DNA from: Microbacterium faecale
GTDB taxonomy: Bacteria > Actinomycetota > Actinomycetes > Actinomycetales > Microbacteriaceae
Assembly: GCF_014640975.1 (NCBI RefSeq)
Contig: NZ_BMHO01000001.1
Location: 320,166-384,165, forward strand
Reading direction: 5' to 3'
Length of the DNA stretch: 64,000 bases
Shown here: in pieces, positions 27,688-45,290 of the stretch
How the letters are laid out: each line of letters opens with the position of its first letter
Position numbering within the stretch: position 1 is the stretch's first letter
Notes under the pieces: generated by a model
Told to the model about the DNA's origin: nothing
Databases searched by the model: none
The model's input: only the letters and a program-made list of their open reading frames with translations
Position numbers and translations under genes: made by a program

Positions 27688-27762
27688 TCAACTTAAGCGG
27701 CAACGAATTCGACGATAACGCATACACTCGGTGAGATACGTCACTCTCATCAGGAAGATTCC

Positions 27763-29023: not shown

Positions 29024-30556
29024 GTGGCTGCCCCGATACTGCGCGACGACGCGCTGACCGCCAGGCCCGACGGATTCGAGCTGCGGCTGTCGCTGCCGTG
29101 GATCCGGTCGATGCCGCTCGCGTGCGTGACGGAGCTGTCCGTCGTCATCGGCGGCGCGCGCTGCGACGTTGCCGTCGCCCTCGGAGACCGCGAGATCCCG
29201 CCCGCGGACCTCGCGCGGGAGGACGCGTGGTGGTTCCTACAGGATCGACTGGTGCTGCGCGGATCCGCCTCACTCGGGCCTGGAGCGCATCGCGTCGAGG
29301 CCTTGTTCCGGCTCGTCGTGCCCTATCTCGCGGGCGGACCCGACGGACCGCTCGTGCTCCCGTTGCGCGAGGAACGCGAGCTGGACCCGTCCGTTCACCG
29401 CGCGTCGGCTTCGCGTGATGTCTGCGGCGAGGTCGCACCCACGACGGGAGCGTCGCCCGCCGCCGAGGCGAGCATCGGGGCGACCGGCGGGCCTTCGGGT
29501 TCTGATGACGCCGGGGGCGGCGCAGGGCCAGCGCACGGTGGGTCTCCGATCTCCGGCACCGCGGATCGCGCCCCGGCCACGACCCTGCCGGACGAGTGGC
29601 GCCTCAGCGCCAACGCGTTCAACTGGACCCCGGACGTCGTGGGCGCGCACCGGCCCGCCCACGACATCGTCGTCGGGATCGTCGCCGACGGCGTCGCATC
29701 CGTGATCGAGGTCGAACCGGGGCAGGTGTGGCCTGCCTTCCCGGCGCCCTCGTCCGACGACGTCTTGCGGCTCCGGAACGATGTCGCCGCGGTAGGCGGA
29801 TCCGTGAGCATGGTCGGCGCGAGCATCGACGATTGGGTGGGGACGGCTCGACGCCGTGACGACGATGAGCGGCTCGCCTTCCTCCTTCCGCAGCTCCGTG
29901 CTGCCTCTCTCGTCGGCGCCGAGGGCGTGCGCCTCCCGCTCGGGCATGCCGGGCGCCCGCTGCTCGAGCGCCTGCTCCCGGTTCTCGAGGAACTGGATCT
30001 CGTGCTGTACGAGGAGATGCAGGGGCAGCAGGCCCCCTCGGGCGCTGCGTTCGACGACATCGCCGACCTCGATGACCCGCGTCTGCGCGTTCTCGTCGAC
30101 ACGAGCATGCTCATGCCGGCGCTCCCGGTCACCTACCTCGAGCGGATGACGTCGCTTCCGGCGGAGCTGCACGCGCGGCTGCGCGAAGAATGGCGGGACC
30201 CCGCGACCCATGAGGCGGTGATCGCGGCGCTGCGAGGCGGATCCGTCCCGCCCGAACTGCGCACGACGTTCATGAATCTCATCGTGCGCTTCGGCCGTTC
30301 GACCGCCGCCGACCTGCGACCGGTCCTGTCGCTGGTGGGCGCGGTCCACCTGAAGTTCTGGGATCTGGACGATACCGACGGGCGCGTGAGCACGCCCATC
30401 CGGGAGCTCGGATCCGAGCTAGCCCGCTCCGGCTTCGCCGGCGCGCTCTGCAGCGAGTGGGGCGGACACGACTGGCTCGACGCCGACGCGACCGACATGA
30501 CGCGAGCGCACCTCGCGCTCGCCCGCCAGGCACTCGCGGAGGGCGCCGCTGCCTGA
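29024..30556 (+). CDS. C-glycoside deglycosidase-like beta-alpha fusion protein
   Basis: This 510-residue protein has three parts. Residues about 1-125 match the CGD beta-subunit fold (DUF6379): LSLPWIRSMPLACVTELSVV and RLVVPYLAGG parallel the WYRSLWLS and LRLPYMQIA motifs of the separate beta proteins. Residues about 126-187 are a low-complexity Ala/Gly/Ser/Pro linker. Residues about 190-510 are a sugar-isomerase-type TIM barrel with probable metal ligands E331, D359, H442 (VHLKFWDLDD) and E478 (CSEWGGHDW). The GTG start at 29024 is two bases after the ROK stop. CGD enzymes are normally alpha/beta heterodimers, so a one-chain form is notable. Substrate unknown; activity inferred. Confidence 0.75.
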   Translation: MAAPILRDDALTARPDGFELRLSLPWIRSMPLACVTELSVVIGGARCDVAVALGDREIPPADLAREDAWWFLQDRLVLRGSASLGPGAHRVEALFRLVVPYLAGGPDGPLVLPLREERELDPSVHRASASRDVCGEVAPTTGASPAAEASIGATGGPSGSDDAGGGAGPAHGGSPISGTADRAPATTLPDEWRLSANAFNWTPDVVGAHRPAHDIVVGIVADGVASVIEVEPGQVWPAFPAPSSDDVLRLRNDVAAVGGSVSMVGASIDDWVGTARRRDDDERLAFLLPQLRAASLVGAEGVRLPLGHAGRPLLERLLPVLEELDLVLYEEMQGQQAPSGAAFDDIADLDDPRLRVLVDTSMLMPALPVTYLERMTSLPAELHARLREEWRDPATHEAVIAALRGGSVPPELRTTFMNLIVRFGRSTAADLRPVLSLVGAVHLKFWDLDDTDGRVSTPIRELGSELARSGFAGALCSEWGGHDWLDADATDMTRAHLALARQALAEGAAA

Positions 30557-30646
30557 ATCCTGTGCACGCGGCCGCCGCGAGGTGTCAGTCATACTTTTAT
30601 TCGAGCTGCTCCGCCAGCTTCTCCTTCGTTTGTCGTATGTCTGTTC

Positions 30647-30652
30647 TATTCT
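30647..30652 (+). promoter_or_regulatory. -10 element of the HNH gene (leaderless)
   Basis: TATTCT ends six bases before the ATG at 30659, and no Shine-Dalgarno sequence precedes that codon. The transcript probably starts at the ATG. Confidence 0.5.
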
Positions 30653-30658
30653 GACAGC

Positions 30659-32119
30659 ATGACGACGATCCTCGAGGCACCCGCGGAAGCGCCCGCGATA
30701 CTGCCGCCGCGGCGGCACGTGGGAGCCGCCGTCGCGCTCGTAGCCGGGCTGATCGAGCGCGTCGAACAGCTGCCGGATGCTGCGCTGGCCGACGCATCGA
30801 GGACGGTCGAGGAGCTGGGACGCTTCGTCGACGCGTTACGCGTGCGGATCGCGGGCGAGGTCGACGAGCGGTCGAGCTCGTCGCTGCCTCCCGAGGAGCG
30901 CCTGTCTCAGAAGTATGCGTGCCCGAACGCGGCCGGGCTGCTGGCGCTGACCACGAAGGCGTCCCGGCGCGAGATCCAGGAACGGATCCGCCTCGACCGC
31001 CGCACTCGCGCGGGAACGACCCTGACGGGCGAGCCCCTGCCGGCGGCGTTCCCCTCGGTCGCGGCAGCCTTTCACGACGGAGCCCTCGGTGTCGACGCGG
31101 CTCTCACGATCACGGACGCGCTCGCGAAGGTGACCGATCGCGGGGTCGCCGATCCCGCCGATGTCGATGCGGCCGAGGCGAGTGTCGTCGCCCTCGCGAC
31201 GGGCGACGTTTCGGCAGAGGAGACCCCCGCCGAGACCCACGACGATGTCCGCGCCGTCACGAGCCTGTGGGCGACGGCGCTCGACCAGGACGGCGTCGAC
31301 CCCGACGCCGCCTACGCGGAACGCAGGCGCGGCGTCACACTCGGTCGCGAACGCGACGGACTCGTGCCGCTCAGCGGCCGGCTGATGCCGGAGACCGCCG
31401 GCCTGCTGCAGCGACTCTTCGACGCTCACCTGGCCTCCCCGACCCGATCGGTCTCGTTCGCGCCGTCTCCCGAAGATGCAGACCACGACGAACCGTGGTC
31501 CGACACCGAGCACGTCCTCGACCCGCGCACGGTCCCACAGCGTAAACACGATGCGCTCATGGGCATGCTCTCTGCCGAGGCCGCGTCACGCGTGGCCCCG
31601 ACGATCGGCGGCGCCGCCCCCACGCTCGTCGTCACCGCGACCGTGAATGACCTCGACGGCGGCGTCTGCCGGGCCGACGGCGTCGACATTCCGATGCCCG
31701 CGCGCGTCGCGCACCGCATCGCCTGCACGGGCGCCGTGCAGAAGGTCGTCTTCGACCGGGGCGGCAAGATCCTTCAGCTCGGCGTGCCAGAGCGGCTGTT
31801 CTCTGCGCACCAGCGGCGGGCGATCGCCGCGCGCGACGGCGGCTGCATCATCCCCGGATGCCAGGTCCCCGCGTCGCAGTGCGAGATCCACCACGTCGAG
31901 GAGCATTCGCGGGGCGGAGCCACGCACACCTCGAACGGCGTGATGCTCTGCTGGTGGCACCACCACCGCCTCGACGACGGCGGGTGGCTCATCCAGATGC
32001 ACGACGGCATCCCCTACGTCGCCGCCCCGCACTGGATCGACCGACATCGCCGATATCGACCGGTCCGCAATCACGCGGTAGCGAGGGTCCGCGTGCCAAT
32101 TCACCCTTCGCCGTTGTAG
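30659..32119 (+). CDS. DUF222/HNH endonuclease domain protein
   Basis: This 486-residue protein has an N-terminal DUF222 domain (helical, with ANAAGLLALTTKASRREIQE-like features) and a C-terminal HNH nuclease fold near residues 395-445: CIIPGC, CEIHHVEEHSRGG and LCWWHHHRLD contain the paired cysteines and catalytic histidines. Such proteins are present in many copies in Actinobacteria; their cellular role is not settled. The gene lies between two CGD gene groups and is unrelated to them. Its 3' end overlaps the convergent ThuA-like gene by 19 bases. Confidence 0.9.
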   Translation: MTTILEAPAEAPAILPPRRHVGAAVALVAGLIERVEQLPDAALADASRTVEELGRFVDALRVRIAGEVDERSSSSLPPEERLSQKYACPNAAGLLALTTKASRREIQERIRLDRRTRAGTTLTGEPLPAAFPSVAAAFHDGALGVDAALTITDALAKVTDRGVADPADVDAAEASVVALATGDVSAEETPAETHDDVRAVTSLWATALDQDGVDPDAAYAERRRGVTLGRERDGLVPLSGRLMPETAGLLQRLFDAHLASPTRSVSFAPSPEDADHDEPWSDTEHVLDPRTVPQRKHDALMGMLSAEAASRVAPTIGGAAPTLVVTATVNDLDGGVCRADGVDIPMPARVAHRIACTGAVQKVVFDRGGKILQLGVPERLFSAHQRRAIAARDGGCIIPGCQVPASQCEIHHVEEHSRGGATHTSNGVMLCWWHHHRLDDGGWLIQMHDGIPYVAAPHWIDRHRRYRPVRNHAVARVRVPIHPSPL

Positions 32120-32970
32120 TACGGCCAGGGCAGGAAACGACGCTCGCCCCGGCGATCTGGGCCGTTCAGCGACACCTCGCCGGTGGCCGCCCATTCGACG
32201 CCGCGCGGGAACATCCGGATGAACTCGATGCGACGGAACGTGTCGATGTCATGGCCGATGGTGATCGTGAACGAACGGCCCTCGCCGTACTCGTTGATCC
32301 AGGCGATCGGCTGATCGGTGTTCATACCGGGCAGCGCCGCCACGCCCTCCTCCGGGATCGCAACCGGATAGTGCGGCATGGGCCAGACGGGCGCATTCTC
32401 GTACGCCTCGAGATCGTCGAACGTCGTGAGCAGCACCTGAGCGCCGTCGAGGATCTCCACCCCGACGAGAATGTCGTCACCCGTCACGGTCCAGCGTGCG
32501 CTGATGCCGTCAGTAATCGGATGCCGCGGATCGACGGTGTCGAGTTGCGCCTCGCCCCACGGGCGAGGCCGCAGACCGCCGTCGACGGTCAGCCTCGAGC
32601 CGCGCATGACGTTGTACTCGTCGGGATAGCCCCAGTCGTCCTCCTGTGCAGCCGACCCGTGGAACCACACGATGCCCTTGCCGTCGTCGTGGACGAACTT
32701 CAGCAGCGCGGCGTCCGTCTCCGCGCCGAAGCCGACCGCCTTGTCGTGGTACCCGTCGCGGCCCTCGAACACGACGATCACGACGTCGTACTTGTCGATG
32801 ATCTCAGGCCCGAGCCCGCGCGGGTCCTCGACGACTCGCACGCGGAAACGCCCGGTGTCCTCGAGGACCGTCGTCAGCCACTGATTGTGCTGACGAAAGC
32901 TGCGGAACTCGTTGTCGTGCTCCCTGGTCATGTGACCCGAGAGGATGAGCACGTTCAGCACGTCAGCCAT
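32101..32970 (-). CDS. ThuA-like (trehalose utilisation) family protein
   Basis: This 289-residue protein has the class I glutamine-amidotransferase-like ThuA fold. Characteristic stretches are LNVLILSGHMTREHDNEF, YDVVIVVFEGRDGYHDKA, GIVWFHGSA, DPRHPITDGI and SFTITIGHD. In Agrobacterium, ThuA acts with the dehydrogenase ThuB on 3-keto-trehalose, so a role on 3-keto-glycosides is plausible here. GAGGAC lies before the ATG. It is the last gene of the minus-strand CGD operon (36763 to 32101) and overlaps the HNH gene tail to tail. Confidence 0.85.
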   Translation of the reverse strand: MADVLNVLILSGHMTREHDNEFRSFRQHNQWLTTVLEDTGRFRVRVVEDPRGLGPEIIDKYDVVIVVFEGRDGYHDKAVGFGAETDAALLKFVHDDGKGIVWFHGSAAQEDDWGYPDEYNVMRGSRLTVDGGLRPRPWGEAQLDTVDPRHPITDGISARWTVTGDDILVGVEILDGAQVLLTTFDDLEAYENAPVWPMPHYPVAIPEEGVAALPGMNTDQPIAWINEYGEGRSFTITIGHDIDTFRRIEFIRMFPRGVEWAATGEVSLNGPDRRGERRFLPWPYYNGEG

Positions 32971-32982
32971 CGGTCGATGTCC

Positions 32983-33399
32983 TCACGTCAGCACAAGTTC
33001 GCGCTCGACGGGAACGCGGTTCGTGACGTAACGACCAGGCCCTCCGTCGACGCCCGGTGCGATCTGCATGTAGAGCAGGCGCATCGTGAGCACGACCTCG
33101 ACCGTGATGGTCTCACCCGCGGCTGGCACGTCGTCGAGGCGGATGAGCACGTCGGGTCGGTCGGCGACGAACCAGAGCGTGTCGAACTGCTCAGGCAGCT
33201 CCTCCACGCGGTACTCGCGACCACCGAGGGCGAAGCGCAGGTTCTCGGTCGGCACCTCGGTGCCGTTCACGGACGCCGCGACCCCGTCGACCGCCGACAG
33301 CCAGAGGCTGCGGTACCAGGGAATCTGCACCGACACCGCCAGCCCGTCGTCGGTGCGGCGCACGTCCTTGTCGGAGAAGAGGGAGTTGTGAGTGGCCAT
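32983..33399 (-). CDS. C-glycoside deglycosidase beta subunit (DUF6379)
   Basis: This 138-residue protein is a stand-alone beta-sandwich subunit. It has the family motifs VQIPWYRSLWLSAVDGV, REYRVEELPEQFDTLWF and LTMRLLYMQIAPGVDGGP. In known CGD enzymes the beta subunit packs on the alpha barrel and completes the active site. The ATG at 33399 has TTAGGAG upstream; a longer frame runs into the NTF2-like gene. It lies 10 bases after that gene and 12 before the ThuA-like gene. The best alpha partner is the barrel at 34228-35262, since their sequences parallel the two halves of the fusion at 42469-43944. Confidence 0.85.
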   Translation of the reverse strand: MATHNSLFSDKDVRRTDDGLAVSVQIPWYRSLWLSAVDGVAASVNGTEVPTENLRFALGGREYRVEELPEQFDTLWFVADRPDVLIRLDDVPAAGETITVEVVLTMRLLYMQIAPGVDGGPGRYVTNRVPVERELVLT

Positions 33400-33409
33400 G
33401 ATAGGTCTC

Positions 33410-34192
33410 CTAAGCGAAGGTGTCGGTGAAGTGGTCGTGCGCCACCGGCGGCACTGGCTCGAGCTTCTGCGCGGTTTCCGGGCTGTACGGATGGTTGGTC
33501 GTCGGCACCGGCTCATCGGCCGGCGGCATGAACACCGGCTTACCGTCGTCGCCGAAGTACATGAGGTCGAGATCGAAGGCGCCCTGGTTCTTCAGGCCGA
33601 AGCTCACCCAGTTCTCCTCGAACGGCGCGCGGGCGAGCTCATAGCAGCGGAACTTCCAGAACTTCCACTCGCCGTCCTGCTTGAGGAAGTCGATCGCGTA
33701 CTTGCACCACACCCAGTGCGCCCAGACCTTCTGGCCGAGCACCTCGTCGGGCGAGTACATGTCCGGGAAGGTCTCGGCCACCTTCGGGTCAGTCAGACCC
33801 GACTCCGTACCGGCCATCAGCCAGACACCCTTGGCCGTCTGTCCGTCGCCAGCCACTTCGATCACGGGCGTCGTGGTGGCGTGCAGGATGAGCTTCCCCG
33901 GCGGCGTGGGACGGTCGCGGTGATAGCGCGTCACGCTCTCCCACGTCGTGTACTGTCCCGCGTTGGTGTATCGCGCGCGGATGCCCTCGGTGCCCTCCTT
34001 CACCCACAACGGGATGATCTGCTCGTCCTGAAAGGCGTTGTGCAGATACATGTAGCGGTTGAAGAGGTTCTCCACCTGCCCGCGGTCCTCGGCGCGCTGC
34101 GCGAGGCGCTGCGCGCCAGCGACCTGCTCACGCAGTCGCGTGATCTCGGCGGCCAGCTCGGTGATGCGTGCATCGACAACGGTGTCGGTCAT
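33410..34192 (-). CDS. NTF2-like (SnoaL-type) domain protein
   Basis: This 260-residue protein starts with a short coiled coil (ITELAAEITRLREQVAGAQRL) followed by a cone-shaped NTF2-like domain: VENLFNRYMYLHNAF, TPVIEVAGDGQTAKGVWLMAG and KYAIDFLKQDGEWKFWKFR. The C-terminal 60 residues are Pro-rich. AAGGAG precedes the ATG. NTF2-like proteins serve as small lyases, isomerases or dehydratases and often act on aromatic rings. Being inside a CGD operon it may handle the aglycone or the enone sugar; no activity can be assigned. Confidence 0.8.
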   Translation of the reverse strand: MTDTVVDARITELAAEITRLREQVAGAQRLAQRAEDRGQVENLFNRYMYLHNAFQDEQIIPLWVKEGTEGIRARYTNAGQYTTWESVTRYHRDRPTPPGKLILHATTTPVIEVAGDGQTAKGVWLMAGTESGLTDPKVAETFPDMYSPDEVLGQKVWAHWVWCKYAIDFLKQDGEWKFWKFRCYELARAPFEENWVSFGLKNQGAFDLDLMYFGDDGKPVFMPPADEPVPTTNHPYSPETAQKLEPVPPVAHDHFTDTFA

Positions 34193-34227
34193 GTCACTCC
34201 TTGAGATTGATTAACGCGCCGTTCGAC

Positions 34228-35262
34228 TCACACCGTCTGGCGCTCGGCCACGGCCTCTTCGATGGCGCCGCGCATCAGCGCGTGCTGCTTCTGGACGAGG
34301 TCGATCGGATCCGCCTCGCCGAGATCGGAGAACGCGTGGCCCTCCCACTCGCTCGAGAGGTATCCCTCGAATCCGCCCTTCACGAACTGCTTCACGATGC
34401 GCGGAATGTCCATCGCGGGTTCCTCGCCGTCCGGCCCGATGTCGTAGAACTTCGCGTGGACGTGGAACATCTGCGGCATGATGTCGAGCCACTCCTCCGG
34501 CGGCACGAGCCCGTGCATGTTGAACGCGAGCCTGGTGAACGGCCCAAAGCGCAGGAAGTCCACGCCCTCGCCAGTCAGGTAGTCCTCGAACTTCTGATTG
34601 CGCACATGCATGGGCGTCGGTTCGCGCCAGATCTCGTCCATGACCGAGAAGTGCTTCTCGTCCATCCCCATCTCGCGAAGCGTTCGCAGCAGCGTCGGCG
34701 AGAGGCTGTGCATGGTCGACGAGAAGTCGGCCGTGAAGCCGAGGCGCTCGGACTGCAGCTCGTCATACATCTCGCGGATCTGCAGCACCTCGGGGGAGTT
34801 CGGGCCCAGCGGAGCGTGGATCTCCAATCCGAGCTGCTGGTCGTACTTCTCCGCCAGCGGCAGCAGGCTGCGCAGCAGCTCCTTGCCGTGGGAGCGGATG
34901 ACGATCCGCTTGAAGCCGAGTGTGTGCGCCGTCTTCAGCTGTCGCGCGAGGAACTCGTGCTCCTCATCCGGCGTCATGTCGCGGTGCTTGCGGCGCCCCA
35001 TGTCGAGGTTCGTGCCGACGGCGCTCGGCTCGAGTTCGCACTCCTCGAGCGTCTTGAACCAGAGGTCGACGAACTCCTTGTCGACGTCGGGGTAGGTGCG
35101 CAGCAGCTGCGCGATGTTGAACTCGACGCCCGGCCCGATGCCCTGCTCCGCCACGGCGCGGATGAGGGTCTCGGGCGTGTACTGCCCGGCGGCGAACTCG
35201 CTCGTCATCGAGTACAGGGTGGTACCGAGTTTGATCCCGGTGCCGGCGATTCCGTCACTCAT
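34228..35262 (-). CDS. C-glycoside deglycosidase alpha subunit (sugar phosphate isomerase/epimerase fold)
   Basis: This 344-residue TIM-barrel protein has the metal quartet of the CGD alpha/tagatose-epimerase superfamily: E147 (LEIHAPLGP), D179 (FTADFSST), H269 in FHVHAKFYDI (or H267) and E305 (LSSEWEGH). AGGAGG precedes the ATG, which overlaps the next barrel gene's stop by four bases. It is very similar to the C-terminal part of the fusion at 42469-43944, including the TNLDMGRRKHRDMTPDEE-type segment. With a beta subunit it would cleave the C-C bond of a 3-keto-C-glycoside. Confidence 0.85.
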   Translation of the reverse strand: MSDGIAGTGIKLGTTLYSMTSEFAAGQYTPETLIRAVAEQGIGPGVEFNIAQLLRTYPDVDKEFVDLWFKTLEECELEPSAVGTNLDMGRRKHRDMTPDEEHEFLARQLKTAHTLGFKRIVIRSHGKELLRSLLPLAEKYDQQLGLEIHAPLGPNSPEVLQIREMYDELQSERLGFTADFSSTMHSLSPTLLRTLREMGMDEKHFSVMDEIWREPTPMHVRNQKFEDYLTGEGVDFLRFGPFTRLAFNMHGLVPPEEWLDIMPQMFHVHAKFYDIGPDGEEPAMDIPRIVKQFVKGGFEGYLSSEWEGHAFSDLGEADPIDLVQKQHALMRGAIEEAVAERQTV

Positions 35263-36371
35263 CGGGAGACCTCCTTCTTGTCTGCAAGAGCGTGGTGTGC
35301 GGCAAGCACCGTGCGCGCGTCTGCGGCGCCGGTGACCATGCGCGATCCGGCGTTCTCGGCAGCCGAGCGCTGCACGGCCTGCTCGTCGCGGACGATATCG
35401 AACGGGCTCTGCCAGTTGTTCCAGTGCCATCCCTCGTACTCGCTCGAGACCGCACCGGAGTAGCCGTTCTTCACAAGCAGCTCGATGAGATCACGCACGG
35501 GCACGGACGGCTCTTCCCCGTTCTCATCGATGCCGAAGAACTTCGCGTGCACGTGGTGGATCCACGGCATGATCTCGAGCCAGTCGTCCACGCGCGCCGG
35601 CCCAAACAGGCCGGTGCCGTTGATGCCGAAGTCGATGCCGAGGTCGGGCCGGCCGTGCTGCGACGCGAGGCCGATGAAGCGACCGAAGCGCTCGTTGTGC
35701 TCCTCCTGGTCCGCGGGCGGCCCTTCCCGATAGAAGTCGTCCCACAGGTTCACGACGGCGGTGAGGAGCTCCTCGCTCGCGCCGCGGCGGCGGTACGACT
35801 CCACGAGCGACGGGGCGAATCCCGAGACGGTCGCGCCCCAGTCCATCGTGAAGCCGAGGTACGGGGATCCGACCTTCTCGTAGCGGTCGCGGAGGGCGAG
35901 GATCCGCGGGTGCGAGGCATACTGATCGGCGTGCACCTCCAGCGCGAGCCTGACGCCGTGGCGCTCGGCGATGGGGGCGAGCTGCTCCATCGAGTCGGGC
36001 GTGATCGAGATCTGCACGCGCGCGACGGGGAAGCCGAGCTTCGCCGCCGCCTCGATCTGGCGGGTCATGTATGCGATCAGCTCGTCCTGGTTCAGCAGAC
36101 GGTCGCGGTGGATCCCGATGTCGGCGTTGATCGCGAGCGACGTCGGCACGAGGTCGACCTCATCGACGAGGTCGCGGAACCAGCCGGCGAAGCGATCGTC
36201 GACGTCGGGGAAGCCGCGCAGGCTCGAGAAACCGATGACCTCGAGCCCCGGGCCGTATCCGTCGGCCGCGACCTTGCGGATGAGGCTCTCGAGGTCGTAT
36301 TCGCGTCCGTGGAACGCGCGGGTGAAGCTGTAGAGCGTGACGCCCTGGATCGGGGTACCGAGCGCGGTCAT
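35259..36371 (-). CDS. Sugar phosphate isomerase/epimerase-fold protein, second CGD alpha-like subunit
   Basis: This 370-residue barrel keeps the same ligand set as its neighbour: E145 (LALEVHADQ), D177 (TMDWGATV), H275 in HHVHAKFFGI (or H273) and E311 (SSEYEGWHW). It has an extra C-terminal helix-rich tail of about 40 residues (ending HHALADKKEVSR). Its start overlaps the upstream DUF6379 stop by four bases, so this alpha and the beta at 36368-36763 form a natural pair. It may be a second CGD with another substrate, or a hydratase acting on the anhydro-enone sugar that CGD releases. Confidence 0.8.
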   Translation of the reverse strand: MTALGTPIQGVTLYSFTRAFHGREYDLESLIRKVAADGYGPGLEVIGFSSLRGFPDVDDRFAGWFRDLVDEVDLVPTSLAINADIGIHRDRLLNQDELIAYMTRQIEAAAKLGFPVARVQISITPDSMEQLAPIAERHGVRLALEVHADQYASHPRILALRDRYEKVGSPYLGFTMDWGATVSGFAPSLVESYRRRGASEELLTAVVNLWDDFYREGPPADQEEHNERFGRFIGLASQHGRPDLGIDFGINGTGLFGPARVDDWLEIMPWIHHVHAKFFGIDENGEEPSVPVRDLIELLVKNGYSGAVSSEYEGWHWNNWQSPFDIVRDEQAVQRSAAENAGSRMVTGAADARTVLAAHHALADKKEVSR

Positions 36372-36763
36372 GCGGCCACCGCCTTCATGGTCTTGGCATC
36401 GTGTTCGTCGATGTGCAGCACTTCACCGTCACCGATGACGATGTACGGGATGAACAGGGTGAGATCGACGGCGACCTCGTGCTCGGCGCCGGGGTCGATC
36501 GCGAGATCTCCCGACAGCACGGCCGAGTCGAGGGGGAACCACCACGATTCGGTGTCGTCGACCATCTCCGCGAACGTGCGCGAGCGGCCGTTCATCTCCC
36601 AGCGGAGCGAGTCGGCCGGCGCCGTGACGCCGTCGATGGTCAGGGTCGCGCCGGAGATGCACGACGCGGGGAGCGCGCGATACCAGGGAATGCGCACCTC
36701 GACCGATGCGCGGGATCCGTCGCTGGTGAGCGTGCCCTGCTCGATGATGCGGTCGGGAATCAC
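36368..36763 (-). CDS. C-glycoside deglycosidase beta-like subunit (DUF6379)
   Basis: This 131-residue beta-sandwich protein has VEVRIPWYRALPASCISGAT, SRTFAEMVDDTESWWFP and VDLTLFIPYIVIGDGEV, matching the beta family though more distant than the copy at 32983-33399. The GTG start is preceded by GAGGAGG. It is the first gene of the CGD operon, directly downstream of a good promoter, and overlaps the next barrel gene by four bases. It probably pairs with that barrel. Confidence 0.82.
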   Translation of the reverse strand: MIPDRIIEQGTLTSDGSRASVEVRIPWYRALPASCISGATLTIDGVTAPADSLRWEMNGRSRTFAEMVDDTESWWFPLDSAVLSGDLAIDPGAEHEVAVDLTLFIPYIVIGDGEVLHIDEHDAKTMKAVAA

Positions 36764-36796
36764 CGGAGCCTCCTCATCCTTGTTGTTGTTTCATAC

Positions 36797-36826: not shown

Positions 36827-36854
36827 CGAGTCGTCCAGACGGGAGGAGTCTGCG

Positions 36855-38375
36855 TCAGCCCAGGCGAGCGGCGATGCGACGGGCGCCGCGCACCGCAAGA
36901 GCAACCGACGTGAGGGTCGGGTTGCAGGCGGTCGAGGTGGGGATCACGCCATTGCCGGCGACGAAGACGCCCGGCGCCTCCCACACCTCGCTGAACGGAT
37001 CGCAGACGCTCGCGCCGTCGTCGTCGCGGCCCATCCGGACCGTGCCCTGGTAATGCAGCGATGATCCGAACGGCAAGACGAAGGGATGTTCGTCGAGCGG
37101 CTCTCCAACGGCGCGACCGAGGCGAGCGATCTCCTCCTTCGCGCGCGAGATCACCGCGTGATCCGTGTCAGTGAGGGTGTAGTGGATCCGCATGGCCGGC
37201 ATACCGTAGGGGTCGAGTTCGGCCTCGTCGAAGGCGACGCGGTCCGACGCCTGCAGGTCCTTCGCGCAGAAGAACCCGAGCCCCACGATGGAACCGGGCA
37301 CGACCGGATCGTCCTCGGCGAGCGGGATGGGTGACGCGTCGAGTTGCATGATCTGGCCGTGGAACGGGAGCGCGTCGCTGTACGGCACCCAGCTAACGCC
37401 GCTCGTCTCGCTCAGCACGCCTGCCTCTGCGGGCTCTTCGGCGGGAGCCGAGACGTCGCGCAGCCGCGACGCGAACACGACCTGGGTCTGGTCATTGAGA
37501 TAGCGGCCGAGCGCGGCGGGACGGATCCCGGATGCCCACAGCACCTGCGGGGTGCGCAGCGCGTCGGCAGCGACGACGACGAACCGCGCCGCGACGGTGT
37601 GGAGCGAGCCGTCGCGCACGTCACGCACCTCGACGCCGGCGGCGCGGCCGTCCGCGAGGAGAACCCGCGTGACGAGCGACTCATCGTGTAGCGAGAACGC
37701 CGGGTTGGCGCGCGTGACGTCGCCCAGCACGACGTCGGATCCGGACCAGACGAGTCGTCCGTCGTCGCGCCTGCGGACGGCGAGCGGCATGCGCTGGACG
37801 CGACGGTCCTCCGGGCGCCCGTCGTCGACCGCCGCCGCGAGCCGTTCCCGCACGAGCTCTGAGAACGGCGCCGCGTCGAAGGCGTCGGCCGTGACGCCGA
37901 GCAGGCGGTCGCCCTCGGCGAGCAGCTCGTCGAAGACGCCCTCCTCGTCGAGGAAGCCGATTCGTTCAGAATCGCCCGGCCGAGGGCACGCCGCGGTCCA
38001 GTGCGCACTCATCCCGCCGACGTTGCTCGAGAACGCGGCGACGGGCAGCCCGTCCTCGCCCTCCTGGATGTACCCGTCGTCGAGGAGGTACGTTCCGGGG
38101 CGTGCCCGGCGGTCTCCCGCTTTGACCGCACCCGGTGAGCTCACGGTCGCGGCGCCCGCGCCCGGCCCCTCGGATCGTCGCTGCGCTTCGGCGAGCCCCT
38201 CGGGATCCGCGATGTTCCTGACGTGCGCACCCGGCGGGTCCGTTACCGTCGGCCCGACCTCGAACATCGCGACCGTCGTTCCCGGTGCCGTCTCGGAGAG
38301 GATCCGCGCGTATGCGGCACCCGTGGGGCCGGACCCGACGATCACCACGTCGACCGACTCCGGGTATCTGGTCAT
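36855..38375 (-). CDS. GMC-family FAD oxidoreductase (C-glycoside 3-oxidase-like)
   Basis: This 506-residue flavoprotein starts with the FAD motif VVIVGSGPTGAAYARIL and has the C-terminal catalytic pair H441 (SLHYQGTVRMG) and N485 (CNPTLTSVALAVRGAR). It resembles pyranose oxidases and the CarA-type enzymes that oxidise C-glycosides at C3 before deglycosylation. It lacks a signal peptide. The start at 38375 overlaps the upstream isomerase stop by four bases (ATGA); an in-frame ATG at 38390 is less likely. It is the last gene of the importer/isomerase operon and lies next to the CGD operon, which fits a two-step oxidation and elimination. Confidence 0.87.
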   Translation of the reverse strand: MTRYPESVDVVIVGSGPTGAAYARILSETAPGTTVAMFEVGPTVTDPPGAHVRNIADPEGLAEAQRRSEGPGAGAATVSSPGAVKAGDRRARPGTYLLDDGYIQEGEDGLPVAAFSSNVGGMSAHWTAACPRPGDSERIGFLDEEGVFDELLAEGDRLLGVTADAFDAAPFSELVRERLAAAVDDGRPEDRRVQRMPLAVRRRDDGRLVWSGSDVVLGDVTRANPAFSLHDESLVTRVLLADGRAAGVEVRDVRDGSLHTVAARFVVVAADALRTPQVLWASGIRPAALGRYLNDQTQVVFASRLRDVSAPAEEPAEAGVLSETSGVSWVPYSDALPFHGQIMQLDASPIPLAEDDPVVPGSIVGLGFFCAKDLQASDRVAFDEAELDPYGMPAMRIHYTLTDTDHAVISRAKEEIARLGRAVGEPLDEHPFVLPFGSSLHYQGTVRMGRDDDGASVCDPFSEVWEAPGVFVAGNGVIPTSTACNPTLTSVALAVRGARRIAARLG

Positions 38376-39166
38376 GCGACGGCCGCCCATTCCACGATCC
38401 GCCGCACCGACGCCGCCGAGGCCGACTGCGGGTAGTACTCGAGCCCGATGGGTCCGTCGTATCCGGAGGCGCGGAGAGTGCGGAGGCGCGCGGGCCAGTC
38501 GAGCTCACCCGTCCCCGGTTCGCCGCGGCCCGGCGCGTCCGCGAGCTGCACGTAACGGATGAGGTCGCCCGCGCCCTCGAGCTCGGCGGCCATGTCCTCC
38601 CCCTCGACGGCGGAGTGATAGATGTCGTAGAGGATCCCGAAGTCCGGCGAGTCGACGCCGCGCGCGACGTACGCCGCCTCCGCGGTGCGGTCGAGCAGCG
38701 AGCCGGGGTGGTCGACGCGGATGTTCACGGGTTCGAGGACGAGCGTGATGCCGGATCCGTCGATCTGCGTGACGGCCTTCTGGTAGATCTCGACGAGCTT
38801 GTCGAGCTGCACGTGTCGTTTCCAGCCGCCGAAGCCCGTGCCGCTGCCGACGACGATGCGGGGGCAGCCGAGGTCGCGGGCGATCGCGACGCCCTCGTCG
38901 AGCTTGCGGAAGAACTCGGAGTGATCCCACGGCGGGATCATGAACTGCGTGCGCGGTTCGGACAGTTGGGCCGTCAGCTGCGTCCCGGTCTCCTCGAGCG
39001 CCGCCTTGAGCGCGGGCACGTCCTTCGGCTCGGCCGGGGCGTCGACGCCGGTGGGCCCCCACATCTCGACGGCGTCGAAGCCGGCCGCGGCGGCTGCGCG
39101 GACGCGGTCCGGATAGTCGCCGGTCTCCGTGAAGAGGAGTTCGATGTTCGGTGCGAGTTGGTACAT
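38372..39166 (-). CDS. Hydroxypyruvate isomerase-type TIM barrel protein
   Basis: This 264-residue barrel has the Hyi/OtnI signature: LVLEPVNIR (metal Glu), ILYDIYHS (Asp), RYVQLADAPGRGEPGTGE (Gln ligand and the PGRxEPGTGE loop) and IGLEYYP (Glu). Enzymes of this group isomerise small keto/aldo acids or keto sugars. AAAGGT precedes the ATG. It lies between a MalG-type permease and the GMC oxidase, with a four-base overlap to the latter, so it probably works on a product of the imported sugar. Hydroxypyruvate itself is only one possible substrate. Confidence 0.82.
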   Translation of the reverse strand: MYQLAPNIELLFTETGDYPDRVRAAAAAGFDAVEMWGPTGVDAPAEPKDVPALKAALEETGTQLTAQLSEPRTQFMIPPWDHSEFFRKLDEGVAIARDLGCPRIVVGSGTGFGGWKRHVQLDKLVEIYQKAVTQIDGSGITLVLEPVNIRVDHPGSLLDRTAEAAYVARGVDSPDFGILYDIYHSAVEGEDMAAELEGAGDLIRYVQLADAPGRGEPGTGELDWPARLRTLRASGYDGPIGLEYYPQSASAASVRRIVEWAAVA

Positions 39167-39210
39167 GTGGTGACCTTTCGATGTCGGGAGCGCTCAGCGG
39201 ACGTCGCGCG

Positions 39211-40047: not shown

Positions 40048-40048
40048 C

Positions 40049-40996
40049 TCAGACCTCCTTGGGGCCGCGGGTCGCGCGCTGCTGCAGCACCGCGAAGAAG
40101 AGGATGACGATGGTCAAAAGCAGGGCGAGCGCTGCGCCGTACCCGAAGTTGCCGAGCGAGAATGCCTGCTTGTACATCTCCGTCGCAAGAGTCTGCGTCG
40201 CGTCGGCCGGACCGCCACCTGTCAGCGCCATGATGTGGTCGAAGATGCGCAGTCCGTTGACGATCCCCAGCGTCGTCGCGATCGCGATCGCCGGTCTGAT
40301 CGAGGGAAGGACGATGTTCCAGAACCGCTGCCACAGGTTCGCGCCATCGATCGCGGCGGCCTCCTCGACCTCCACCGGTACGCTCGCGAGCCCGGCCATG
40401 TAGATGACGAGCGCGAAGCCGATGTTCTGCCACACGATGACGATGAGGATCATCCAGATCGCGAGAGACGGATCCGCCAGCCACGGGCGCACGAGTCCGT
40501 CCAGTCCGATCATGGCGAGGAGCCCGTTCAGGGGGCCGTCGAACTCGTAGATGAACTTCCAGATGTACGACACGGCGAGCGGGCTCAGCACCGTCGGCAT
40601 GAAGAAGAGCGTGCGCAGCACGTAGCGGGTCTTGAGGATTCGGTTGAGGCCGACGGCGAGCGCGAGCGCGAGGACGTTCGATGCGATCACGGATCCGAAG
40701 GCGAGGAAAAGGCTGTTGCCGAGCGCGAGGATCTTCGACGGATCGCGGAAGATCCTGACGAAGTTGTCGAACCCGATCATGTTGAACGAGCCGATGCCCG
40801 ACCAGTCGGTGAACGCGAAGAACCCGCCGACCGCGTTGGCGGCGTAGTGGACGCCGAAGACGAGCACGATGCCCGGGAGCGCCCACCACCAGTGGCCGAA
40901 GCTCAGCAGGCCGCCCGAGCGCGGACGGGTTCCCGCAGGGCCCCGTCCGCGCCGTCGGCGTGGCACCGTGACGATCTCAGTTGCTGACGTGGTCAT
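40049..40996 (-). CDS. Carbohydrate ABC transporter permease, MalF/UgpA type
   Basis: This 315-residue membrane protein has an Arg/Pro/Gly-rich cytoplasmic N-terminus (PRRRRGRGPAG) followed by six helices and the coupling loop EEAAAIDGANLWQRFWNIV. The start at 40996 follows AGAGGGGAAC; a longer frame to 41080 overlaps the upstream intergenic region only. It lies between the binding protein and the MalG-type permease. It belongs to the importer likely to bring glycosides or free sugars to the GMC oxidase and CGD enzymes. Confidence 0.92.
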   Translation of the reverse strand: MTTSATEIVTVPRRRRGRGPAGTRPRSGGLLSFGHWWWALPGIVLVFGVHYAANAVGGFFAFTDWSGIGSFNMIGFDNFVRIFRDPSKILALGNSLFLAFGSVIASNVLALALAVGLNRILKTRYVLRTLFFMPTVLSPLAVSYIWKFIYEFDGPLNGLLAMIGLDGLVRPWLADPSLAIWMILIVIVWQNIGFALVIYMAGLASVPVEVEEAAAIDGANLWQRFWNIVLPSIRPAIAIATTLGIVNGLRIFDHIMALTGGGPADATQTLATEMYKQAFSLGNFGYGAALALLLTIVILFFAVLQQRATRGPKEV

Positions 40997-41036
40997 CGCC
41001 GTTCCCCTCTCTCGTCGCGGTGTATCGCGGTGCGGG

Positions 41037-42314
41037 TCAGTTGTCCCAGGCCTGATCCATCGCGGCGAGCACGTCGTCAACGGTGCTCTGTCCGGTCAGC
41101 AGGCCCTGCACGCCGGAGCCGAGCTCGTCGTAGACCGACTGGTTCACCCACTGCGAGTTGGGCAGCGGCGCGAATCGATCGGCCTGCAACGCGTCGGCAA
41201 CGGGGGCGTACGCCGTCCCGCTCAGATCGAGCTCGGCGTATCCGCTTGCGGGAAGGACACCTGCGATGTCTGCGAACGTCTGAGACTGCTCAGGCTCAGC
41301 GACCCACGCGAGGAAGTCCTGCGCCGCTTCAGACGCCGCATCACCGGCAGCCGCGTTGAGCGAGAGCGAATAGTTCGAACTCGCGAGGATGAAGTCCTCC
41401 TCGCCGGCCGACGGGAAGGGCTGGAGCGTGAGCTCCTGGCCCTCGGCCGGCCCGCTCATGATCTCGTGAACCGCGCCGCTGGGGACGAAGGCGGTCAGCG
41501 ACGACTTCGCCGCGAGCCCGTTGGTGATCGCCTCGAAGCCGGCGCCGGCCGCGCCGGGCTGGAAGCAGTCCGCTTCGTTCATCTCCACGATCAGCTCGAG
41601 CGTGTCGTGCCACCCCTCGCTCTCGGCGAAGGTGACCTCACCGTCGATGCGCTTCTGGTTCCAGGCGGGATCCTCGGCGAAGACCTTCGTGGCGGAGATG
41701 GACAGCGCCATCATCCCCGTGTTCGGCGCCGCCGCCCCGGCGAGAGCGAAGGCAGAGACCGGTGCGCCGCCGAGATCGGCGCACGTCGCGAGCAGCTCGT
41801 CAGTGTCCGCGGGGAAGGTCACGTCGTTCTCAGCTGCCGCCGTCTCGTTGAACGCAGTGGCGACGATCGTGTAGTCCATCGGGACGCCGTACACGCCGTC
41901 GGCGCCGAAGAGATCCTCGCTGCCCTCGGGAACGAGCGCCTCGGCACCGGAGCCGAGCTTCGTGAGGAACCCGGCATCGGACAGCTCGATCAGGCTCTGG
42001 CCCTGTCCGCTCCCCGGAGCGGTCTGGATGATGTCTGCGGCATTGCCGCCCTGCAACTGAGTGCGAAGCGACTGCGCATAGTTGTCGTTCGGCTGCGGGT
42101 TGAGTTCGATGTCGACGTCGTGCGTCTCCATGTACTCATTCGCGAGCGTCTCATAGGGGCTCTCGAGGTTGTTCGACGTCGCGTACGTCATCGAGAAGCG
42201 CGCAGTGTCGCCTCCCTCGTCGGACCCGGAACAGCTCGCGAGCACCAGCGTGCCCATCGCTGCGACCGCGACGGTACTGACCATGCGCGTGCGGCGGGAG
42301 TTCTGCGTTGACAT
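41037..42314 (-). CDS. Carbohydrate ABC transporter substrate-binding lipoprotein (SBP family 1)
   Basis: This 425-residue extracellular protein has a signal peptide ending in LVLASC (Cys28), followed by a Ser/Gly/Asp linker. Family 1 features include LANEYMETHDVDIELNPQ, GGNAADIIQTAPGSG and GVYGVPMDYTIVATAFN. AAAGGG precedes the ATG at 42314; the frame is open further upstream but runs through the promoter region. It is the first gene of a five-gene operon (importer, isomerase, GMC oxidase). The ligand is unknown; a glycoside is the natural guess. Confidence 0.9.
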   Translation of the reverse strand: MSTQNSRRTRMVSTVAVAAMGTLVLASCSGSDEGGDTARFSMTYATSNNLESPYETLANEYMETHDVDIELNPQPNDNYAQSLRTQLQGGNAADIIQTAPGSGQGQSLIELSDAGFLTKLGSGAEALVPEGSEDLFGADGVYGVPMDYTIVATAFNETAAAENDVTFPADTDELLATCADLGGAPVSAFALAGAAAPNTGMMALSISATKVFAEDPAWNQKRIDGEVTFAESEGWHDTLELIVEMNEADCFQPGAAGAGFEAITNGLAAKSSLTAFVPSGAVHEIMSGPAEGQELTLQPFPSAGEEDFILASSNYSLSLNAAAGDAASEAAQDFLAWVAEPEQSQTFADIAGVLPASGYAELDLSGTAYAPVADALQADRFAPLPNSQWVNQSVYDELGSGVQGLLTGQSTVDDVLAAMDQAWDN

Positions 42315-42392
42315 GTTGTGCCCTTTCGACGTCTTCGTCTGATCGCGATCCGGGTGCCCCAGGGTGGGCGTGCCCCGCGATAACTCGATTGT

Positions 42393-42428
42393 CGCAAAGT
42401 TATGCGAGAAACACACATAACCGTTGCG
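42393..42428. promoter_or_regulatory. Inverted-repeat operator candidate upstream of the sugar importer
   Basis: CGCAAAGTTATGCG (42393-42406) and CACATAACCGTTGCG (42414-42428) are imperfect inverted copies of one another, separated by seven bases. They lie 80-115 bases upstream of the binding-protein start. Next to them GTATGACATAAGTG (42432-42445) matches an element upstream of the LysR gene at 12 of 14 positions. I see no clear -10/-35 pair here. Confidence 0.5.
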
Positions 42429-42468
42429 GATGTATGACATAAGTGGGGTTCGACCCCATTTGGTCCAG

Positions 42469-43944
42469 CTAGACGTGCGCCCGTAGAGCGGCGGCGCTCG
42501 CCCGGATCAGGTCGTGCTGGCGGCGCACGAGTACAAGCGGATCCACCTCACCCAGTTCGGCGAACGCGTGACCTTCCCACTCGCTCGAGAAGTAGCCGCG
42601 ATAGCCGCCCTCGACGAACACGCGCACGAGCTCCGGGTAGTCGATCGCGGGCTCCTCGCCCGACTCGTCGATGTCATAGAACTTTGCGTGCACGTGCATG
42701 ATCTGCGGCATGATGTCGGCCCACTCGGTGGGGTCGACGTGGCCGTGCATGTTGAATGCGAGGTGCGCGAAGGATCCCAACCGTCCCGGGTCGAAGTCAC
42801 GTCCGCGCAGGTACCCGATGAACTCGTCCTGGCGTTCGCGCATCGAGCGATCGGTCGCCCAGATCTCTTGCAGGCGCTCGAGCGCCGCGCTGTCGAGGCC
42901 GGCGCGCGCGACCGCGCGCAGCAGGGTCGGCGACATACGGCGCATCGTCGACGAGAAGTCGGCGACGAAGCCGAGCAGCGGCGAGCCCAGCTCCTCGTAG
43001 ACCTCGCGCACGCGCAGGATCTCGGGCGAGTTCGGCCCCAGGGGTGCGTGGATCTCGTACGCGAGCTTCACGCCGAGCTCTTCGGCGAGCGGGAGGAGGC
43101 GACGCAGCAGCTCGGGCTTCGCGCTCTGGATGCGGATGAGCGGGAAGTCGAGCCGCGCGGCACTGGCGAAGAGCGTCCGAGTGAAGTCGTACTCTTCGTC
43201 CGGCGTCATGTCGCGGTCGCGGCGTCTGCCCATGTCGAGGTTCGCGCCAAACGAGCTCGCGACGAAGCCGTGGCGGTCGAACGCCGACCGCCAGCGCCGC
43301 TCGAACTCGTCGGTGACGCGCGGATACTCGGGGAGCATCTGCGAGGCGACGATCTCGATGCCGGGCCCGATGCCGAGATCCGCGACGCGATCGAGCAGCT
43401 GATCGAAGTCGAACCAGCCGGCACGGAACTCCGCGCTCGCCGAGTAGAGCGTCAGGCCGAGCGGAAACGGATCATCCTCGGCGGGCGGCCGCGGATCCGT
43501 CACGCGGGCGAGCTCGGGCGCAGGCGCGTCGCGATCCGTCGCCGTGAGACGCTCCTCCTGGTGGACGATGTTCGGCACGTACATGCCGGGCCCGCCGTTC
43601 TCGCCCGCCGCAATCTGCATGTACGGCAGGCGCAGTTCGCCGTGGATCACGACGTCGCGCTGGTCGCCGACGACCACCGGCTCGTCGAGCGCGACGACAA
43701 GGAGCGGGTGCGACTCGAGATACCAGAGCGTCTCGCTCTGGGCGGGCAGCTCCGACAGCGCGTAGCTTGTGCCGTCGAGTTCGAAGGTCAGCTTCTCCTG
43801 CGCGACCTCGACACCGTCGATCGACAGCGTGATCGACGTGACGGACGACAGCCACAGGCTGCGGTACCAGGGCACCTGGAGACGGAGGGCGGCGCCGGCG
43901 GGGTGGGCCCGCAGACTGTCGTGTGCGATGAGTCCGTTGGGCAT
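42469..43944 (-). CDS. C-glycoside deglycosidase beta-alpha fusion protein
   Basis: This 491-residue protein joins a beta domain (about 1-135) and an alpha barrel (about 160-491) through a Pro/Asp-rich linker. The beta part has LQVPWYRSLWLSSVTSITL, ALSELPAQSETLWYL and ELRLPYMQIAAGENGGPGMY, nearly the same as the stand-alone beta at 32983-33399. The barrel keeps E297 (AYEIHAPLGP), D329 (FVADFSST), H419 or H417 (MHVHAKFYDI) and E455 (SSEWEGH). TAAGGAG precedes the ATG. It follows another fusion gene by 10 bases. It probably does in one chain what the heterodimer 32983/34228 does in two. Confidence 0.82.
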   Translation of the reverse strand: MPNGLIAHDSLRAHPAGAALRLQVPWYRSLWLSSVTSITLSIDGVEVAQEKLTFELDGTSYALSELPAQSETLWYLESHPLLVVALDEPVVVGDQRDVVIHGELRLPYMQIAAGENGGPGMYVPNIVHQEERLTATDRDAPAPELARVTDPRPPAEDDPFPLGLTLYSASAEFRAGWFDFDQLLDRVADLGIGPGIEIVASQMLPEYPRVTDEFERRWRSAFDRHGFVASSFGANLDMGRRRDRDMTPDEEYDFTRTLFASAARLDFPLIRIQSAKPELLRRLLPLAEELGVKLAYEIHAPLGPNSPEILRVREVYEELGSPLLGFVADFSSTMRRMSPTLLRAVARAGLDSAALERLQEIWATDRSMRERQDEFIGYLRGRDFDPGRLGSFAHLAFNMHGHVDPTEWADIMPQIMHVHAKFYDIDESGEEPAIDYPELVRVFVEGGYRGYFSSEWEGHAFAELGEVDPLVLVRRQHDLIRASAAALRAHV

Positions 43945-43954
43945 GGGGTGCTCC

Positions 43955-45244
43955 TTACAGCGACGAGGCGATGCGGCGGATGAGGGAGTGCTGACGGCGC
44001 ACCTGTTCGATCGAGCGCCACGGATCGCGTTCCCCCTCGTACTCGCTCGAGAGATACCCCGTGTAGCCCGCGTCCTTCATGGCGCGCAGCACGGGTTCCC
44101 ACGGGATCTGCTGATCGACGAGGTTCTCGTCGATGTCGTGGAACTTCGCCTGCACGAAGACCGTGTACTTCGCGACGTCGGCGAAATCGGCGGGGTCGAC
44201 CCCGATGCCGTCGAGGAACGCGGGGCGGGTCTCGCGGGTCTCTCCGGCGCGCAGCGGGATGGGACGATCCTGGAAGATGCCGGTGTCGATCAGCAGACCG
44301 AAGTGCTTCGTGCCGGTGCGTTCGATGAGCGAGATGTAGTCGTCGACGACGGGGTGCTTGATGGGCGTCGGCGAGTGGATCTCGGGGCAGATCACCACGT
44401 CGAGTTCGTGGGCGAGGTCGAGGGAGCGCTCGACGGATTCCGTCCAGATCGGGTGAGGGACGAGGTCGCTGGAGACGACGCCGATCTTCGGGCGCACGAA
44501 CCGGAAGCCGAACTGCTTCGCGAGCTTCAGGTCTCGTTGCAGCGCGGCCGCGCCCTGCTCTGCCGTCATGTCCTGGTCCGGGTGCAGTCGCGTGTCGATC
44601 CAGGATCCGTAGTTCGTCGGCTCGAGGGCGTACTTCTCCAGCAGCCGGAACCACTCGTCGATCCAGGCGGTCGTCGGGTTCGGATACCCGGCGACGTGCG
44701 CCTCGCCGAGAATCTCGACGCCCGTCGCGCCGACGTCCGCGACGTGCCGAAGCGACGTCTCGAGGTCGAGCACGGTGCCGTAGTCGTGCATGAAGCTGTA
44801 CAGCGAGACGCCGTACTTGAAGGGGCCGCCATCGCCCTCGGGCGCGAGCGTGACGTGCTTCGTCTCGCGCGCGAGCGTGGGCTGGTGCTCGATCGGGATG
44901 TAGGACATCCGCAAGCGGATCTCCACCGAGAGCTCGTGCACGCCCTGGGGGAGCCCACCGTCGAGCGGCACCGTCACGAGCGCGCCATCCTCGAGCGACC
45001 AGCGGTATCCCTCGCTCGCCTGGACCTCGGCGAGGGTCATCGTGCGGCCGCCGAGCGTCCAGAGGGGAACATCGGGCGCGACGTCGACGAGACCGGGGAT
45101 CCGCACCCCGATGCCGTCGATGAGCGAAGCGGCCATCCCGCGATACGAGGGAATGCGCACGCGGAATTGGAATCCCGTCGCGCGCCCACCCTCATAGACG
45201 TTGCGGAACCCCGTGGATTGGATCAGGTCTCGTTCGAGCAGCAT
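43955..45244 (-). CDS. CGD-like beta-alpha fusion with altered metal site
   Basis: This 429-residue protein has an N-terminal beta-like region (about 1-130: RVRIPSYRGMAASLIDGI, RLRMSYIPIEHQ) and a C-terminal barrel (about 140-429). The ligand set is E288 (CPEIHSP), D320 (LLIDTG) and E401 (SSEYEG), but the usual histidine is Q365 (FVQAKFHDI where paralogues have HVHAKF). Gln at this position is the norm in Hyi-type barrels, so the protein may still bind metal but with different chemistry. The ATG at 45244 is chosen because GAGGGAG lies five bases upstream; the GTG at 45250 would overlap that site. It is the first gene of its operon. Confidence 0.75.
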   Translation of the reverse strand: MLLERDLIQSTGFRNVYEGGRATGFQFRVRIPSYRGMAASLIDGIGVRIPGLVDVAPDVPLWTLGGRTMTLAEVQASEGYRWSLEDGALVTVPLDGGLPQGVHELSVEIRLRMSYIPIEHQPTLARETKHVTLAPEGDGGPFKYGVSLYSFMHDYGTVLDLETSLRHVADVGATGVEILGEAHVAGYPNPTTAWIDEWFRLLEKYALEPTNYGSWIDTRLHPDQDMTAEQGAAALQRDLKLAKQFGFRFVRPKIGVVSSDLVPHPIWTESVERSLDLAHELDVVICPEIHSPTPIKHPVVDDYISLIERTGTKHFGLLIDTGIFQDRPIPLRAGETRETRPAFLDGIGVDPADFADVAKYTVFVQAKFHDIDENLVDQQIPWEPVLRAMKDAGYTGYLSSEYEGERDPWRSIEQVRRQHSLIRRIASSL

Positions 45245-45290
45245 CGGCACTCCCTCGTCGCAGGTGATGGGTGTGCCTTCACGCTATCCC

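Follow-up and report, generated by a model that had tools for sequence, protein, structure and literature searches.

Positions 29024–45244 of the window (the whole 64,000-nucleotide stretch analysed here, from contig NZ_BMHO01000001.1 of Microbacterium faecale) pose the question of what five modules related to C-glycoside deglycosidases (CGDs), each an alpha barrel with a beta domain, do within a single island. CGDs cut sugar–aryl C–C bonds by acid/base chemistry with the help of a metal, a rare ability. The answer that we consider probable is that the island serves to break down aromatic C-glycosides, probably of the flavonoid type, and related O-glycosides, with one of the five modules, F1, probably being an enzyme of the sugar end that does not cleave C–C bonds.

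All ten domains described in the earlier note were found where it had placed them, by Pfam and by matches to solved CGD chains: five DUF6379/CGDB beta modules and five xylose-isomerase-like alpha barrels, joined in three cases as beta–alpha fusions (F1, 29024–30556 on the plus strand; F2, 42469–43944, and F3, 43955–45244, both on the minus strand). The remainder are separate minus-strand genes for two betas (32983–33399 and 36368–36763) and two alphas (34228–35262 and 35259–36371), with 4-base overlaps between neighbours at 35259–35262 and 36368–36371, the latter marking 36368–36763 as the likely partner of 35259–36371. All five CGDB copies of the M. faecale genome lie inside the window. Each alpha matches solved CGD alpha chains, with best scores of 596 bits for 34228–35262 and 210 bits for 35259–36371 (both to 7dnm_A), 424 bits for F2 and 82 bits for F1, and F3 scores 756 bits over its entire fused chain; the PF01261 barrel is listed by Pfam for four alphas and is not listed for F1 at E 0.01. 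The alignments of 34228–35262 with residues 1–339 of 7dnm_A and of 32983–33399 with 7dnm_B from residue 1 (188 bits) support the starts of these two genes, and F3 aligns with 8qrz from its residue 1, which puts its ATG at 45244. On the CGDB profile (PF19906, cut-off 27.6 bits), 32983–33399 scored 53.5 bits, 36368–36763 48.8 bits, the N-terminus of F2 45.2 bits and that of F3 106.7 bits (open reading frame (ORF) 43955–45250), so that the proposed membership of DUF6379 holds for four betas; the F1 N-terminus reached 17 bits (E 0.0052). Some F1 homologs do carry PF19906 in precomputed domain annotation, the F1 beta resembles a solved CGD beta chain (30.8 bits to 8qvc_B), and it was taken as a real beta domain because a PWIRS/PWIRA motif is kept in 46/46 rows from the genus. 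On this homology the modules belong to the CGD family and, with a 3-oxidase and a transporter nearby, the view of them as CGD alpha and beta domains in an apparent glycoside catabolic island is well supported.

Catalytic residues from the literature (PMC8563793 and PMC10628242; these and the other papers cited are drawn on in the portions of their text available) were mapped onto the modules. In AgCGD2 numbering, the metal ligands are E147, D179, H269, K271 and E305, the base is His149 with Glu307 as its helper, and the aglycone is touched by Tyr17 (PMC8563793). In PuCGE, beta Tyr39 is specifically required for C-glycosides, the Y39F change costing about 12,000-fold in activity on 3-keto-C-glucosides and 2.4-fold on an O-glucoside, and Glu301, the counterpart of Glu307, contacts the sugar 2-hydroxyl in simulations (PMC10628242). 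The full alpha set (E147, H149, D179, H269, K271, E305 and E307) is present in 34228–35262, 35259–36371 and F2, and is conserved in 45/45, 45/45 and at least 43/44 of their respective genus rows. F3 has the full set except for Gln at 269, as in the solved 8qrz, and this Gln recurs in 45/45 F3 rows; as judged from the alignment it is a stable ligand swap in otherwise complete CGDs. Tyr occupies the beta Tyr39 position in the four betas other than that of F1 and in every ungapped row of those four groups (the position, in PuCGE numbering, was deduced from the start offsets of matches to 7bvr_B, assuming no preceding gap). An assignment of the 35259–36371/36368–36763 pair to AgCGD1, MiCGD or MtCGD from their published descriptions could be no more than tentative: the alpha clade has Gly or Ala at the Met249 position (Gly in the window), as described for these three, but the beta loop is shorter, not longer. 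The genus alignment left out 22 alpha and beta rows below the identity thresholds; two F1-like rows among these likewise have Gln and Gly at the positions of His149 and Glu307.

F1 is the odd module. It keeps the five metal ligands and has Gln149 for the base His, Gly307 for the Glu, Phe17 for the Tyr and, in its beta domain, Ile for Tyr39 (46/46 genus rows). Gln149 and Gly307 with the ligands intact were found in 46 of 47 genus fragments (the remaining one is gapped at each site), in 78/78 rows from 79 loci of named genomes fetched by F1 similarity (L162 yielded no row) and in 103/103 further proteins taken from the top 120 of 702; in another list, the top 120 of 660 proteins, Gln149 occurred in 119, with P0078 the single exception, and Gly307 in all 120. 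The beta Ile stands in 120/120 proteins among the best-listed relatives, and in 78 of the 79 named-genome loci with one gap, a count that is not independent, one scan pattern having included this Ile. In these loci the F1 beta and alpha are fused in 28 cases, collinear in 35 and divergent genes in 16. The predicted F1 model was confident overall (mean predicted local distance difference test score 86.2, predicted template modelling score 0.85), with residues 139–181 below 50; a structure search with it ranked CGDs first and sugar epimerases and 3-keto-glucoside enzymes lower, although the placement of the two domains relative to each other agreed poorly with 8qrz/8un2 (root-mean-square deviation 17–18). 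A Deinococcus aerius CGD is present among the PDB titles. NCBIfam returned nothing for F1 at E 0.01 and, with CGDs at the top of the structure search, membership of a known non-CGD family was rejected. By sequence, F1 belongs to a conserved side branch of the family in which the CGD fold and metal site are kept and the aglycone-activating and base residues are lost.

These states suggest a role. Without the base, its helper and the two aglycone-contacting tyrosines but with the metal site, F1 should still hold a 3-keto sugar but leave a phenolic aglycone unactivated; the binding of the sugar may differ too, because the Glu307 counterpart in PuCGE contacts the 2-hydroxyl. F1 is therefore probably not a C–C-cleaving CGD; its substrate may be the sugar set free by the others or some other 3-keto-glycoside. 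It could hydrate the released 2-hydroxy-3-keto-glycal, catalyse 2-keto/3-keto isomerisation (which has been reported to occur spontaneously for puerarin and nothofagin), cleave O-glycosides with a good leaving group, or have a non-catalytic function; of these, a reaction at the sugar end is tentatively favoured. The later step put forward in the earlier note, hydration of the anhydro-enone sugar, may thus still apply to this module.

The five-paralogue layout, described earlier as an expanded island, proved to be widespread. The family occurs in 68 of the 295 same-genus genomes searched (M. faecale included), each carrier having 3–7 copies, and F1 orthologs were found in 65 of the 68, with no strong F1 match in G044, G100 and G166. 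Of the 67 other carriers, 48 supplied fifty stretches for comparison, chosen mainly for having F1 and beta matches on one contig, and 39 of these stretches held the entire set (F1, both split pairs, oxidase, barrel, transporter, F2 and F3) at the identity thresholds used; the synteny search for the five-copy arrangement thus recovered it in most. Among the other 11, four lacked only F2, G038 lacked F3, G094 was incompletely fetched and five were other or second islands. Gene order was as in the window in 33 of the 39, and six showed local swaps, some perhaps arising from stop-to-stop ORF calling. In the alpha tree (75 hand-picked rows, whose long branches meet at deep joins, so that no order between clades is claimed), the five groups each formed one side of a branch in 97–100% of bootstrap trees, F2 was the sister group of the 34228–35262 clade, and the clades of F1, 34228–35262 and 35259–36371 contained Arthrobacter or Pseudarthrobacter members. 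A recent local expansion was ruled out by these five supported clades, three of them with such members. The same core, F1 included, was present as far as the fetched stretches reach in Arthrobacter globiformis NBRC 12137 (L144), Pseudarthrobacter siccitolerans 4J27 (L188) and Microbacterium trichothecenolyticum DSM 8608 (L124), and the F1 swaps hold in all three; CGDs or the PsG3Ox oxidase have been studied from these species (PMC8563793, PMC10646112), in the case of the CGDs perhaps in other strains.

Several further islands were seen in the survey. G203 (L093/L094) and G267 (L095/L096) carry a second, divergent CGD-type island with other oxidases, a transporter and its own Gln/Gly F1-like alpha (33–34% identity); a pattern search for a PxYR-type motif found none in their two divergent betas, which are among the 22 omitted rows. 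Extra F3-like alphas and betas occur as separate genes in L075 (G204), L097 (G166), L099 (G100), L100 (G038) and L109 (G094), in each case next to another GMC oxidase. Microbacterium-like islands in L135 and L127, labelled Stenotrophomonas maltophilia and Planococcus, may reflect contamination or mislabelled assemblies.

The genes around the modules fit a route of five steps. A glycoside would first be imported by the ABC transporter, encoded on the minus strand by two permeases (PF00528; 39211–40047 and 40049–41080, the start of the second being uncertain) and an extracellular solute-binding protein (PF13416/PF01547; 41037–42323). Its sugar would next be oxidised at C3 by the flavin adenine dinucleotide (FAD)-dependent glycoside/C-glycoside 3-oxidase at 36855–38390 (minus strand), a PsG3Ox/CarA-type GMC oxidoreductase scoring 816 bits to 7qf8 and 795 bits to 7dve, against only 185 bits to the pyranose oxidase 9fl2, which marks its closeness to characterised 3-oxidases. 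Metal-assisted beta-elimination of the aglycone would follow, by four CGD modules of differing specificity: the split AgCGD2-type pair, its fused sister F2, the 35259–36371/36368–36763 pair and the fused Microbacterium testaceum-type F3. In the published scheme, with the 3-keto sugar bound at the metal, the catalytic His takes the C2 proton and beta Tyr39 stabilises the ionised phenol beside the scissile carbon (PMC10628242), a variant with dearomatisation having also been proposed (PMC8563793); by analogy, the former scheme would apply to these four modules. The released 2-hydroxy-3-keto-glycal would then be hydrated and reduced by the xylose-isomerase-like, hydroxypyruvate-isomerase-like barrel at 38372–39166 (minus strand; PF01261, and TIGR03234 at 160 bits, below its cut-off) and a Gfo/Idh/MocA oxidoreductase at 26615–27727 (minus strand; PF01408, 78 bits), the candidate final 3-keto-sugar reductase by comparison with PMC10628242; for the barrel, family membership alone is established, and keto-glycal hydratase is a candidate role. 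F1 itself most likely does not cleave C–C bonds and would act at the 3-keto-sugar end (hydration, isomerisation or a good-leaving-group O-glycoside).

The last step, opening of the aglycone ring, would fall to minus-strand genes at 15239–21427 for two FAA hydrolases, an amidohydrolase, an FAD monooxygenase, a cyclase and an extradiol-dioxygenase-like protein. Five of the genes have homologs around F1 in 46–53 of the 79 named-genome loci each, some of which are shortened by contig ends, and the sixth (for the FAA hydrolase at 19362–21152) has them in just 8. In the degradation of naringenin (fde) and isoflavones (ifc), hydroxylation of the A-ring is followed by dioxygenation (PMC11069340, PMC8552027). 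The ring-cleavage genes in the flanks appear to point to aromatic glycoside catabolism, and we infer that they act on the aglycone here.

Among other explanations, the one that survives best, though unlikely, makes F1 a catalytically dead partner, either a binding or sensing protein tied to the adjoining ROK-family gene (27763–29022, plus strand; PF00480, 184.5 bits) or one that acts on the other CGDs as a chaperone or inhibitor. The loss of the base residues is in keeping with this, as is the arrangement of the locus: F1 starts one base past the ROK stop, and, wherever the two things compared were both present, its alpha shares the ROK strand (17/17 genus and 75/75 named stretches) and lies opposite to the main operon (45/45 and 64/64, respectively). 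Yet virtually all aligned homologs retain the five metal ligands, for which a protein with structural duties only would have no evident need.

The proposal that the island works mainly on O-glycosides, with C-glycosides a minor substrate, concerns all modules and is rather improbable. PuCGE does cleave 3-keto-O-glucosides as well (PMC10628242) and PurA oxidises O-glycosides (PMC12724307), but Tyr39, the residue that PuCGE needs specifically for C-glycosides, is kept in four of the five beta groups.

The first reading of the locus was that all five modules are active C–C-cleaving CGDs, each with its own preferred C-glycoside. The fold and almost the full set of metal ligands are common to all five (F3 having Gln at 269), preferences for C6 or C8 do vary among CGDs (PMC8563793), and the divergence of the five paralogues does suggest divided roles; that part of the proposal stands. 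Its extension to F1 is unlikely because four residues tied to C–C cleavage (His149, Glu307, Tyr17 and beta Tyr39) are replaced there, and the single beta Y39F change already reduces PuCGE activity on 3-keto-C-glucosides to the extent given above (PMC10628242). We accordingly give this reading little weight.

The idea of F1 as a chance ORF or pseudogene was rejected on conservation, a ratio of nonsynonymous to synonymous substitution rates (dN/dS) below 1 and the confident model, and decay in particular, for which the dN/dS above that of the paralogs and the F1 copies in pieces in G019 and L162 might speak, is extremely improbable in a gene that is unbroken both in the window and in most of its relatives, has invariant ligands and is present in 65/68 carriers.

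Our preferred reading, an aromatic C-glycoside route with F1 at the sugar end, has its own points to answer. Gene content, homology, residue states, conservation and synteny are established; the activities of all modules are predicted from sequence, the reactions and the substrates of every module are likewise predicted, and the use of aromatic aglycones is deduced from the neighbours. A changed residue need not mean lost function, because the solved 8qrz, like F3, has Gln at the position of the metal ligand His269, and single changes are tolerable, since PuCGD kept about 10% of its activity with H143A and about 50% with E301A (PMC8563793). The F1 beta falls below the Pfam cut-off in M. faecale, and in the 16 divergent F1 layouts, mostly of Arthrobacter and Pseudarthrobacter, the pairing of beta and alpha is assumed. 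F1 also evolves faster than its paralogs (median dN/dS 0.39 against 0.14–0.23, by Nei–Gojobori over 820 non-independent pairs from 41 genomes, or 666 pairs for F2, with saturation possible), which partly loosened constraint could explain.

Other genes of the island and window were also annotated. On the minus strand, a ThuA-domain protein (PF06283; 32101–32970) recurs in 41 and a SnoaL_4-like protein (PF13577; 33410–34192) in 32 of the 50 genus stretches at the threshold used, and domain matches identify a second, pyranose-oxidase-like GMC oxidoreductase at 21523–23199. Between F1 and the ThuA gene lies a DUF222/HNH protein (30659–32119, plus strand), whose gene looks like a lineage-specific insertion because homologs over 60% of its length are nearly absent elsewhere (one such homolog, with 35% identity, in the 79 named-genome loci, and zero in the 50 other genus stretches). 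An apparent glucuronide-use region near the glycoside island (3060–13964, minus strand), with which a joint role can be conjectured, encodes a GH2 hydrolase (4295–6136), a mannitol-dehydrogenase family enzyme, the glucuronate isomerase UxaC, a mandelate-racemase family enzyme and parts of an oligopeptide-type ABC transporter.

As a whole, the island adds one more example to a known type: clusters with two pairs (PMC10646112) and a CGD made of one chain (8qrz) had been described before, and the earlier statement that a CGD normally consists of one alpha and one beta takes too little account of this variety. What appears to be new is the conserved F1 branch, with the residues for C–C cleavage replaced and the metal site kept. 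No F1-like protein was described in the literature on C-glycosides and deglycosidases that was searched, supplements and most subscription papers lying outside that search, and the term 'DUF6379' was absent from the literature searched by text. In public records, some F1 alpha homologs (P0121, P0123 and others) bear the name 'restriction endonuclease subunit R', apparently through an annotation error that has spread. It is a tentative and somewhat doubtful suggestion that the branch supplies a step which CGD pathways need and sits in the islands of the studied species under names of this sort. The branch separates the role of the metal site from that of the aglycone-activating residues and may fill a gap in the processing of the sugar once it is released. 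Deglycosylation beside a ring-cleavage set that recurs near F1 suggests one pathway by which soil Actinomycetota take plant aromatic glycosides into central metabolism. The island also offers fused and split CGD architectures for comparison.

Compared with known systems, the closest counterpart of the split pair 34228–35262/32983–33399 is AgCGD2 (AgCarB2–C2 of Arthrobacter globiformis, PDB 7dnm/7dnn), a close homolog of both subunits at the scores given above and the nearest solved relative of this pair and of F2. F2 differs from it in being a single chain from the sister clade, and F1 in lacking the catalytic His/Glu/Tyr set. F3 aligned full length with the single-chain CGD of M. testaceum (8qrz/8un2), with the same order of fusion and the same Gln269, and no difference of note was found between the two; no paper on the M. 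testaceum enzyme was found in the literature search. The 35259–36371/36368–36763 pair and F1 have weaker solved relatives only. The published PsG3Ox cluster of P. siccitolerans 4J27 shares the oxidase type and, in L188, has two alpha and two beta genes, corresponding to the two C and two B genes reported (PMC10646112). The same strain also holds homologs of the F1 alpha (L188:9992–11017) and beta (9525–9950), which are not among the four CGD-like genes named in the available part of that paper. PuCGD/PuCGE (DgpB–C) and EuCGD (DfgA–B) are alike in fold, metal site and catalytic residues; they are enzymes of gut bacteria and form heterooctamers (PMC8563793), and DgpA, the oxidoreductase of the DgpBC system, depends on nicotinamide adenine dinucleotide (PMC12724307). 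The AtOGE/AtHYD pathway of Agrobacterium follows the same logic of oxidation, elimination, hydration and reduction, with AtOGE reported to be unrelated in sequence to CGDs (PMC10628242).

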